Shown: in pieces, positions 6,413-10,526 of the stretch
How the letters are laid out: every line of letters begins with the position of its first letter
How positions within the stretch are numbered: the stretch's first letter is position 1
Assembly (NCBI RefSeq): GCF_027012695.1
Contig: NZ_JALUYR010000042.1
Coordinates: 1 to 32,829 of the forward strand
From: Thermococcus sp.
GTDB lineage: Archaea; Methanobacteriota_B; Thermococci; Thermococcales; Thermococcaceae
DNA: 32,829 bases
Direction: 5' to 3'
The notes under the pieces: generated by a model
Seen by the model: the letters and a program-made list of their open reading frames with translations, nothing else
Databases searched by the model: none
Told to the model about the DNA's origin: nothing
Made by a program: the position numbers and the translations under genes

Positions 6413-9400
6413 ATGAGGGTTCGTAAGTACGTAACCTTCTCGTTGATGATCCTGATCTCGCTGCTCATGGCCTCCGCCCTTCTGAGATCGGTTCCCGAGT
6501 TCGCCCCCTCTCCCGTCCCGATCGAGGATCTGCTCGCCAGGAATTCCGGAAACGGTACTGAACCGACAGGATCTTCCCCCGCACCCAATGGAGAGCCGGA
6601 ACTCAGCGTCACCGGGGCGGCCCACATCCATTACCTCCGCACCGCGGTTTACTCCATTTACGTGAACGGGAAGTGGCGGGAGGGAAACGCCACCAGGATC
6701 CCCTCGGGGATAATCGCGAGGCCCGAAATAACAGTTCCCCACCACGAGGAAACAGACACCGTGACCGTTGTCTCATCAGTTCCGCTCAAAACCCTTCCAA
6801 CGGCCCTCCACACGGTCCGGGTCGAGGCTCCAGGGGTTAGTGCCCTCCCGGAGTACGATCTCTTCCAGACGGCCACGAATGTTACATTCTACCGGTTCAG
6901 GGCGATTACTTATACCTTCGATCCCCCCTATCTCCTCAACCTCACGGCCGGGAACCTCACCGATTACCTCAACGCCCCGAACGACCGGGACCTCGCGACC
7001 CTTGCCATGAGGATCACACTGGGGGCGAAGTCCGACTACGAAAAGGCAGAAAGGATAATGTACTACCTTACGGGAAACTACGCGCTCAACGAAAGTGTCG
7101 CACCTCCCAACAACACCGACCGGCTTCGTTGGTTCCTCTTCCACTCGAAGACGGGAAGCTCCTACGACTTCGCCACGGCCTTCGTCCTGCTGGCCAGGCT
7201 GAACGGCCTTCCCTCGAGGCTCGTGGAGGGATTCGGGATAAACGCCACTCCTGAACCGCAGAGAATCACCGGAAAGAACCGCCTCTACTGGGCGGAGGTA
7301 TACTTCAGGGGCGCGGGCTGGCTGACTTTCGACCCCATCAACGACTACACGAACGTTTTCCGGCCCTTTGAAATCAAGCTGGAGGAGAACGAGTTCACGG
7401 TACCCATTAACGGGAGCGTCCTTCTGAGGGTGCACTTCCTGGACGTTGCAAGCGGACTTAACGCCACCCTCCGGATCACCGACTGGACCGGACGGGAGCT
7501 CTTCACCACCACCCGTCCCGGGACCTTCGAAATCCCCGTGGGGCCATTCAAAAGACCCGGGAGTTACGCGCTCTTTGTCAACGCCTCCGCCCGCGATGGT
7601 TCGACGGTTGTTCTTCCGGTAAGGGTGAACGTTATCGGCAGGGCGGCCGTCTACCCCGAAGGGGACTGGATTATCATGAGGTACGGTGAGACCACCAGGG
7701 CTCTGATTCGTGTGAGGGGACTGGAATCGGTTGCGGTGTCCTCGGACTCCCCCCTCGTTGCCGGCACGCTATACCTCTCCTCGGATCCAAAGGACACGGG
7801 GGTCCTCGTTGTCTTTTTGACCGGGAACAGAACCCCTCCCGGATGGCAGAGGGTCGTGCTTGAGCTCAGGGGCAAAGAAGAGAACCAAACCGTCGTCCTT
7901 CCGGTCCTCATCGTTGACCCGCCCGAAGTTGACCCGGTTCTTCCCGTGAGGCTGATGGGTGGAACAGGTTTCGAGATCTCAGGAACCGTCAGGGGACGAG
8001 AGTCCGGCCACCCCCTGGAGAGCGGCCTGGTCTACGCTACCATAGAGAGCGACAGGCTCCACCTCCTGGGAGTCGGAAAGGTCAGCGGCGGGAGGTTCTC
8101 TTTCAACGCCACCGTTCCGACGGAGTTGCCCGGGGGACGGTTCATCCTCGGGGTGACATATCTTCCCCCCGCCGGCGTCCCGGGGGATGGTTCATCCTCG
8201 GGACAGGTCATCGTGATCGGGCTTACAGAGATAACCGTCCCCGAAGAGGTGATCGCCCCTCCAGGAAACGTGACGGTGACCGGGATTCTCCGCGGACGGG
8301 ATGGGCACGGGATAGCGAACGCGACGATAGGGTTCCTCCTCGATGGAGCTCCTGCCGGGGAGCTGAGAACATCCCCAGGAGGAACGTTCCGCGTCACTGT
8401 GCCGGTGGCGGGCGTGGAAGTTCATAGATTGGGGTTCCTCTTCAACGGGACCGACTTCTACGCCGGGAGCTCGGCCCTGACTGTGGTGAGGACGGTGAAG
8501 CTCAAACTCCCGAAAGAGATCAACGTCACCCTGGGAAGTCCCCTTAACCTTAGGGGTGCCCTCGTCGGTGTGGAAAACGCAACGCTGAAGGCCTACATCT
8601 TCCCCGACAGGGAGTACAGGGTGAGGGTTGAGAACGGGAGCTTCTCAGTTGTCATCGAACCCTTCCCGACTGTCGGGGAGAGAACGCTCGAGTTCCGCTC
8701 CGGGGCCCACATCCTGGGGAGGATCGTTCTGAGGGTGGTCTCTCCTGTGGAGATAAGGCTCCTCGGGACCGAGAGGGAGGACGATTCCGCCACGTTAAGG
8801 CTGGGGGTATTCAACCGCCTAGGAGAACCTGTCCCGGGGATGAGGCTGGTGGTGAGGACAGAAAACCTCACTGAAGTCTCGACCACGAACTCCTCTGGGA
8901 TTGCGATCGCCAGGATCCCCGTGGGGGAAGACGCGGAGGTGCTCAACGTGACCGTGATTTTTGAGGGGAGCGGCTACTACCTCCCCGCGAGGGCATCCTT
9001 CAGGGTACCGCTCCACGGGGAAGGCGGACCCTGGGGTATCGCCGCGGTAATCGGTCTTCTCCTGGCAGTTTACGTCGCCACCCGCAGGAAGAACCCGGGG
9101 GTGGGGAATTCCCCGACGGTGGCGTTTCCGGATGGCGTTCCCGTCTACCGGGAGGGGGAAAGGATTGAAGTAACGGCCGGTTGCGACGGAGCCGAGCTGC
9201 TCGTCGACGGGCATTCCCTCGGGGTGGGAAGGAAATTCACACTGGTTCTTCCGGCGGGTGAGCACTGGGTGGAGGTCCGGTGCAGAGGGAAAAGCGAACG
9301 GGTCAGGGTGGTGGTCGTGAGGGACTACGCAGACGCCGTCGGGATGTTCTACGAGAGATGCCTCCTCCCGTGGGCGGGAAACCTCGGGCTGGATGTGGAG

Positions 9401-9583
9401 AAGATGACCCCGAGGGAGATAGCCGGGGCCCTCGCGGAGAAACTCTATCCCCCAAAACCCCTGGACATAATTACAGGGACGTTTGAGAGGGCCAGGTACG
9501 GGACGGGGGGACTCTCAAGGGGAGACTTCATCAGGTTTTACAGGGCCCTCCTCGAGCTGGTGGGGGGTGAGTGCGTTGTTTAA
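6413..9583 (+). CDS. large membrane-anchored transglutaminase-like protein, catalytic Cys and His replaced
   Basis: This is a 1056-residue protein. A signal-anchor covers about 5-25. A transglutaminase-like core covers about 190-320, with FATAFVLLARLNGLPSRLVEGF and WAEVYF..GWLTFDP. Aligned to the family pattern GxCxxFA...HAWxEV...DP, the catalytic Cys position is S250 and the His position L291; only D307 is kept. It is probably a pseudoenzyme. Beta-sandwich, Ig-like repeats with many N-glycosylation sequons fill about 330-870. A transmembrane helix (WGIAAVIGLLLAVYVA, about 873-890) follows. A cytoplasmic tail contains a PEGA-like beta unit (about 905-965) and a DUF4129-like end (MTPREIAGALAE...FERARYG). 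It is the first of four overlapping genes. Ligand binding at the cell surface is only an inference. Confidence 0.8.
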   Translation: MRVRKYVTFSLMILISLLMASALLRSVPEFAPSPVPIEDLLARNSGNGTEPTGSSPAPNGEPELSVTGAAHIHYLRTAVYSIYVNGKWREGNATRIPSGIIARPEITVPHHEETDTVTVVSSVPLKTLPTALHTVRVEAPGVSALPEYDLFQTATNVTFYRFRAITYTFDPPYLLNLTAGNLTDYLNAPNDRDLATLAMRITLGAKSDYEKAERIMYYLTGNYALNESVAPPNNTDRLRWFLFHSKTGSSYDFATAFVLLARLNGLPSRLVEGFGINATPEPQRITGKNRLYWAEVYFRGAGWLTFDPINDYTNVFRPFEIKLEENEFTVPINGSVLLRVHFLDVASGLNATLRITDWTGRELFTTTRPGTFEIPVGPFKRPGSYALFVNASARDGSTVVLPVRVNVIGRAAVYPEGDWIIMRYGETTRALIRVRGLESVAVSSDSPLVAGTLYLSSDPKDTGVLVVFLTGNRTPPGWQRVVLELRGKEENQTVVLPVLIVDPPEVDPVLPVRLMGGTGFEISGTVRGRESGHPLESGLVYATIESDRLHLLGVGKVSGGRFSFNATVPTELPGGRFILGVTYLPPAGVPGDGSSSGQVIVIGLTEITVPEEVIAPPGNVTVTGILRGRDGHGIANATIGFLLDGAPAGELRTSPGGTFRVTVPVAGVEVHRLGFLFNGTDFYAGSSALTVVRTVKLKLPKEINVTLGSPLNLRGALVGVENATLKAYIFPDREYRVRVENGSFSVVIEPFPTVGERTLEFRSGAHILGRIVLRVVSPVEIRLLGTEREDDSATLRLGVFNRLGEPVPGMRLVVRTENLTEVSTTNSSGIAIARIPVGEDAEVLNVTVIFEGSGYYLPARASFRVPLHGEGGPWGIAAVIGLLLAVYVATRRKNPGVGNSPTVAFPDGVPVYREGERIEVTAGCDGAELLVDGHSLGVGRKFTLVLPAGEHWVEVRCRGKSERVRVVVVRDYADAVGMFYERCLLPWAGNLGLDVEKMTPREIAGALAEKLYPPKPLDIITGTFERARYGTGGLSRGDFIRFYRALLELVGGECVV
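8129..8202 (+). repeat. 24-base direct repeat read in two different frames
   Basis: Bases 8129-8152 and 8179-8202 are identical except for one C/T change (GGGGGACGGTTC against GGGGGATGGTTC). The copies are 50 bases apart, which is not a multiple of three. The first encodes PGGRFILG, while the second is read one frame over as PGDGSSSG. It lies inside the Ig-like region of the transglutaminase-like protein, and the second copy yields a Ser/Gly linker. Confidence 0.8.
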
Positions 9584-10526
9584 GCCAGGAACGGGTAGGA
9601 TGATCCTTTACGCGGGAATCGCTATGGCTGCCTACGTCCTATCCCTGGAGCTCGGGACGTTTCCTGTCTTCGCCTCCGCCCTTGTCCTGGTGGCATTCCT
9701 GATAGTGGCAGACCTGGTTGGAAAGACCCCCGGAAGGTTCCTGAGGGTGTTCGGTATTTCCCTTGCATCTGCCCTCATTCTCCCGGAAAACTGGAGCTCC
9801 CTGTGGGAGGCGTTCCTGGGAACCGGACTCGTTCTCCTGGCACCTTCCCTCAAGAACCGTGCAAAACTCGTCCGTGGACTTGGCCTCCTAATGCTCCTCC
9901 ACGGTGTTTCGGGGCTCCCCCCTGTGGGGGGCTATTCCAGGGTTTTTCTCTACACAGGGATCTCCCTCTTCGTGGCCTACGCTCTCTCCGAGCTGGGAAT
10001 CCGGTTCTTTGAAGAAAACGCTCTGGGGTTCGGGATTCTCGGCGGACTGTTCGGACTCTACGCCTCGATGGGGGGCACGCTCCTGGAAACCCACCCTGAA
10101 CTGGTCTTCTACGCCGAGTGGCTGATTCTCTTCCTTGGCGTTCTCATCGCGGGTAACATCGTGTACTCCCTCGTATCAAGAACGGATCCCGAGGAGTACC
10201 TCCTCCGGCTCTGGGAGGAGGGACGACCCTTCGACCCCGAGCTGAAGGCCATCGAGAGGGCCGTGCAGGAGTTCGTGATTCGGGGCAGGAGGGGACCGCT
10301 TGTGGCCTTCCTCGCCTACTACGGCGGAAGGCTCTTCGGGACGAGGGCGGAGTTCGAGGAACTGGTATCGAGAGTGGCGGACTACGAACCCGAAAAAACC
10401 TCCCCTCTGACGCCGGCCTGGATACGGCGAAGGCGCGAGCGGGCGGAGTTAGCAAGAAGGATGAGAATCGTCGAAGAAGTTCTCCACGAGCTCGAAAAAC
10501 TCCTTGGAAGGGGTGGGGAGAGATGA
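9567..10526 (+). CDS. multi-pass membrane protein of the transglutaminase-like/DUF58 operon
   Basis: This is a protein of about 319 residues. Seven or so hydrophobic helices fill the first 190 residues (for example MILYAGIAMAAYVLSLELG, ALVLVAFLIVADLVG, WLILFLGVLIAGNIVYSLVS). A charged cytoplasmic region of about 120 residues ends in basic helices (RRRRERAELARRMRIVEEVL). No named family was recognised. The start is uncertain: GTG at 9567, TTG at 9576 (best spaced from GGGGGGTGA at 9562-9570) or ATG at 9600. All three overlap or abut the end of the preceding gene, so translation is coupled. The stop overlaps the DUF58 gene by four bases. It may form a membrane complex with its neighbours. Confidence 0.75.
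   Translation: MSALFKPGTGRMILYAGIAMAAYVLSLELGTFPVFASALVLVAFLIVADLVGKTPGRFLRVFGISLASALILPENWSSLWEAFLGTGLVLLAPSLKNRAKLVRGLGLLMLLHGVSGLPPVGGYSRVFLYTGISLFVAYALSELGIRFFEENALGFGILGGLFGLYASMGGTLLETHPELVFYAEWLILFLGVLIAGNIVYSLVSRTDPEEYLLRLWEEGRPFDPELKAIERAVQEFVIRGRRGPLVAFLAYYGGRLFGTRAEFEELVSRVADYEPEKTSPLTPAWIRRRRERAELARRMRIVEEVLHELEKLLGRGGER

Follow-up and report, generated by a model that had tools for sequence, protein, structure and literature searches.

Introduction

Operons that join genes for a MoxR ATPase, a DUF58 protein and a transglutaminase occur widely among bacteria and archaea, and to our knowledge their function is largely unknown. The described system closest to the locus studied here is that of TgpA of Pseudomonas aeruginosa (PA2873; PDB 6g49 and 6g4h), which has MoxR and DUF58 as neighbours and ends in a DUF4129 tail. 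TgpA is critical for the viability of P. aeruginosa (PMC3507681), and the general view of MoxR ATPases is that they are chaperones which help protein complexes to assemble or become active (PMC8430577). The 1056-residue protein encoded at positions 6413-9583 of a 32,829-nucleotide stretch of Thermococcus sp. DNA (contig NZ_JALUYR010000042.1; the whole stretch is referred to as the window) resembles TgpA in the fold of its N-terminal beta domain and transglutaminase core, in being a membrane protein and in being encoded in an operon. However, TgpA has a catalytic triad and an activity that has been measured, and a multi-TM domain is fused to it at the N-terminus, whereas the Thermococcus protein has lost the triad, multi-TM proteins are encoded by genes of their own and the head is set off from the membrane by an Ig-like stalk.

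Inactive transglutaminase domains have been described in other settings. In polymorphic toxins (PMC3482391) they have lost triad residues, follow a signal peptide or TM helix and in some cases have Ig domains next to them, and they have been proposed to be peptide binders; these are toxin heads, whereas the 1056-residue protein has no toxin domain and lies in a MoxR-DUF58 type operon. EPB42 and FBXO21, inactive animal members of PF01841 or related families, likewise keep a transglutaminase fold without catalysis but differ in cellular location, architecture and lineage (PMC10318531). The bifidobacterial PFNA cluster brings a MoxR-type AAA-ATPase, DUF58 and a transglutaminase together with FN3-like surface parts in a proposed sensing role, but has a separate FN3 protein and a kinase, and its transglutaminase is not reported to be dead (PMC8430577). 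Our literature search, which was of partial coverage, found no paper on the dead archaeal form described here.

Results

Predicted architecture of the surface protein

The gene is an uninterrupted open reading frame with an ATG start and no internal stop (Table 1). Its Transglut_core match scored 76.5 bits against a cut-off of 23, in agreement with the clear transglutaminase core that an earlier note on this DNA had described. An AlphaFold2 model of the head (residues 40-345), built from an alignment of 44 relatives, had a mean pLDDT of 90.9 and, when compared with known structures as that note had proposed, gave TgpA as its top Foldseek PDB matches (6g4h, E 9e-14; 6g49, E 3e-13), with the match extending across the N-terminal beta domain as well as the core at a TM-score of 0.61-0.67 over about 280 columns. 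The profile match to 6g49 had an E-value of 1.7e-19. As modelled, the fold of the head is that of the periplasmic domain of Pseudomonas TgpA in both halves.

Table 1. Features of the surface protein gene and its operon, in window positions.
Feature	Position	Strand	Evidence
Pseudo-transglutaminase surface protein, 1056 aa	6413..9583	+	ORF, translation; 25 orthologues
N-terminal hydrophobic helix, residues 6-24 (signal peptide or anchor)	6428..6484	+	Hydropathy; model helix 3-25
TgpA-like N-terminal beta domain, residues ~62-190	6596..6982	+	AlphaFold model; Foldseek match to TgpA 6g4h, ~280 columns, covers domain
Transglutaminase core, residues 196-308	6998..7336	+	Pfam PF01841, E 2.3e-21
Ser250 at catalytic Cys position, codon TCC	7160..7162	+	Alignment
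Leu291 at catalytic His position, codon CTC	7283..7285	+	Alignment
Asp307, catalytic Asp kept	7331..7333	+	Invariant in 42/42 compared orthologues and intact paralogues
Stalk, ~six Ig-like beta-sandwich domains, residues 320-866	7370..9010	+	AlphaFold secondary structure; weak Big_1, Big_3_5 and CarboxypepD_reg matches
Transmembrane helix, residues 871-889	9023..9079	+	Hydropathy; model helix 875-890
Cytoplasmic tail: small beta domain 911-969, DUF4129-like helices 997-1046	9143..9550	+	AlphaFold model; PF13559, E 1.4e-5
Operon membrane protein, ~308 aa, start codon uncertain	9600..10526	+	Conserved next gene in orthologous and paralogous operons; no Pfam family
ATGA overlap of membrane-protein stop and DUF58 start; MoxR site in other genomes	10523..10526	+	
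DUF58 (vWA-like) protein, 388 aa	10523..11689	+	PF01882, E 4.8e-14
Final operon gene, multi-TM membrane protein, 270 aa	11686..12498	+	Conserved position in orthologous operons; hydropathy

The full-length AlphaFold model (pLDDT 84.8) has about six sandwiches of Ig-like type followed by a TM helix and, on the cytoplasmic side, a small beta domain and a helical terminus, and a whole-protein Foldseek search returned generic Ig and macroglobulin matches only. The ectodomain carries 23 N-x-S/T sequons where shuffling predicts 5.1 and the cytoplasmic tail carries none, in keeping with the Ig-like, sequon-rich ectodomain of the earlier note. The tail had been called PEGA/DUF4129-like: the DUF4129 part stands, with a PF13559 match narrowly above the Pfam cut-off that recurs in 31 of 37 relatives, while PEGA is absent from the Pfam families matched and the small beta domain is seen by structure prediction only. 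TgpA_N, the multi-TM DUF3488 family, was matched in 3 of the 37 relatives and not in the 1056-residue protein, which has a single N-terminal helix.

The long Ig-like stalk and its sequons would suit a purely structural surface protein, an S-layer-associated strut or adhesin in which the dead core serves as a rigid cap or oligomerisation part and binds no ligand, but the conserved DUF4129-like cytoplasmic tail and the DUF58/MoxR operon point to an internal partner, and we regard this explanation as unlikely.

Loss of the catalytic residues

The triad positions were placed through 16 triad-bearing Thermococcales paralogues and the sequence of TgpA 6g49. This alignment set Ser250 on the Cys, Leu291 on the His and Asp307 on the Asp, exactly as the earlier note had read them, so the Cys-His-Asp triad of an active transglutaminase or protease is absent from the protein. 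Two further positions differ from the intact paralogues in all 26 orthologous copies (254, Asn to Ala; 292, Ala to Phe or Tyr), which indicates that the site was remodelled by more than a single hit. The only Cys residues of the whole protein (924, 957, 983 and 1054) lie in the cytoplasmic tail and the full extracellular sequence has none; an alternative catalytic Cys or His was sought and ruled out, the sole His of the core (His244) being unconserved. A sequencing error was excluded, as the sister genome G061 has the identical Ser, Leu and Asp at the triad positions, and a recent mutation was ruled out with it, as no orthologue has the Cys. Judged from its residues, the core appears no longer capable of thiol chemistry, and the lost triad together with the Cys-free ectodomain favours the non-enzymatic module that had been thought probable at the outset.

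Conservation among orthologues and paralogues

Some match to the protein was present in 54 of 94 Thermococcales genomes surveyed. The orthologue set of 26 complete copies, the 1056-residue protein and 25 others, formed a single orthologous clade with support of 98-99 in two trees, and where the genomic context was fetched (for most copies) a BtpA-like gene lay upstream and usually the same two genes downstream. Asp307 is invariant in this set and no copy has Cys at position 250, where 23 have Ser, two Ala (G023, G035) and one Pro (G017); as all 25 orthologues lack the Cys, it was lost long ago, and Ser is unlikely to serve as a nucleophile. A serine-based hydrolase, which the earlier note had raised as a weak esterase, would draw on the Ser of those 23 copies and on the possible use of Ser by some papain-like families (PMC10318531). 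Against it stand the Ala or Pro of the three other orthologues and, in the window's protein, the Leu at the His position with Tyr292 beside it, and we consider a hydrolase of this kind highly improbable.

The His is kept in 16 of the 26 copies and is Leu, Ser, Gln, Trp or Tyr in the other ten; because so many copies still have it, its loss is secondary and recurrent across the orthologues. The complete triad is intact in 16 paralogues of the same order and in four outgroup proteins, so the loss is a derived state. Other copies without the Cys were found in G055 and G064 (a second copy), G089, G021, G030 and G069; the minimum number of changes was 2 with the outgroup, and a single non-Cys clade was also compatible with the data (p-AU 0.39).

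In ten close orthologue pairs dN/dS was 0.13-0.26 over the gene, and in the transglutaminase core it was below 0.15 in eight pairs and above 0.2 in two. Against sister G061, where synonymous sites are near saturation, the core had the lowest pN of the gene (0.19). These substitution patterns show that the transglutaminase domain is under purifying selection.

Heads without the Cys were also seen in operons of the same type in other Thermococcales (L049, L050, L051, L047, L033 and L034); in these heads the Cys is replaced by Ser, Pro or Asn, and the His position holds Thr, Ala or His. Five of the operons retain MoxR and DUF58 (L049, L050, L047, L033, L034); in L051 the transglutaminase and MoxR frames are split and DUF58 was not found. 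The only other Transglut_core protein of the window's genome is a 538-residue probable lipoprotein (G000:C82:49013-49303; L079, 8572-10185, minus strand) with relatives in most Thermococcales genomes, a family in which both the Cys (Tyr or Pro instead) and the His are missing from all 16 copies aligned. No PF01841 protein with a triad was found in the assembly.

Operon organisation and loss of MoxR

The gene stands first in an operon which, in orthologous loci, runs in the order transglutaminase protein, membrane protein, MoxR, DUF58, membrane protein; neither of the two membrane proteins matched a Pfam family. Triad-bearing paralogues sit in the same order of transglutaminase, membrane protein, MoxR and DUF58. 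The operon is an archaeal counterpart of the MoxR-DUF58-TgpA module of bacteria. This context, the retention of the His in part of the clade and the absence of MoxR from the window all lie beyond the earlier note.

In the window no MoxR gene is present between the membrane-protein gene and DUF58, where the two frames overlap by ATGA. A complete MoxR gene stands in 18 orthologous operons and in two others the end of the record truncates it, and the operon MoxR genes are otherwise 81-96% identical among orthologous operons. The gene was lost repeatedly across lineages: cleanly in the window (10523-10526), by a large internal deletion in G015 (L070 11380-11741), with a relic left in G017 (L072 8388-8552), and with no gene in G055, G057 and G060. 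As the contig of sister G061 ends with the beginning of a MoxR gene, the loss in the window probably postdates the split from that genome.

These losses bear on a second explanation, namely that the module is decaying: the enzymatic job would have been lost, then the His and then MoxR, under relaxed constraint and heading to loss, with the protein kept mainly as a surface stalk. Besides the six MoxR-less or MoxR-damaged operons, this is favoured by the faster evolution of MoxR-less copies, whose paths to the root of the clade are longer (medians of 1.05 and, in the other copies, 0.76; Mann-Whitney p 0.01, a rank test that ignores relatedness), and by the window's own path of 1.13 against 0.78 in G061. 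The His is missing in 5 of 6 MoxR-less and 5 of 20 other copies, which are too few independent events for a claim. However, the reading frame is full-length, the transglutaminase core is still the most constrained part and the residues of the fold are retained, so that we hold decay to be rather improbable, though less so than a purely structural role.

Three MoxR genes and three further DUF58 loci lie elsewhere in the genome. One paralogous operon (L078 5393-10385; G000:C82) encodes MoxR, a 646-residue protein, a membrane protein and DUF58; the 646-residue protein has Ig-like, TM and DUF4129-like parts, the same kind of tail and stalk, and no transglutaminase domain, and the head therefore looks exchangeable.

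The DxSxS metal motif of the window's DUF58 protein is irregular (DSRTL), with DAREA in most copies. A link between the dead head and a dead DUF58 metal site was considered and dropped, as most Thermococcales copies share this irregularity, whether or not MoxR accompanies them.

Discussion

Inactive transglutaminases and this type of operon were already known; what is new is their combination and its stepwise decay. With the catalytic residues lost and the fold and operon partners long kept, the dead core is most likely a binding or sensing part and not an enzyme. We think it reasonably probable that the protein is a pseudo-transglutaminase whose head binds a ligand, stands on an Ig-like stalk and is coupled across the membrane to the DUF58 system. 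Our data show the fold, the lost triad, the conservation and the operon; the ligand and the coupling we infer. Inactive transglutaminases beside Ig domains, proposed to be peptide binders, offer a precedent (PMC3482391). In an archaeal module of MoxR-DUF58-TgpA type the protein would be the subunit at the surface, a TgpA-like extracellular head carried by the stalk and joined by one membrane helix to the DUF4129-like cytoplasmic tail. The dead core most likely binds a cell-surface peptide or glycopeptide in what was its substrate cleft, and the tail would report binding to the DUF58 protein or be assembled by it, a DUF4129-DUF58 contact being assumed from gene order alone. In the window's organism MoxR may act from another genome locus; alternatively, the module may be losing function. 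The differing replacements of the His in 10 of 26 copies and the loss of MoxR in several lineages count against a ligand-binding head and also fit a decaying module.

More broadly, we tentatively propose, as a possibility we rank below the ligand-binding head itself, that the Thermococcales MoxR-DUF58-TgpA module serves for sensing across the membrane and can dispense with transglutaminase catalysis; its head would have turned into a pseudoenzyme receptor, perhaps on more than one occasion, and could even be swapped out or manage without a MoxR of its own. The operons form a natural series, with an active, a dead or no transglutaminase head and with or without MoxR, that separates the roles of catalysis, binding and the ATPase, and this series occurs in Thermococcus, a genus with working genetics.
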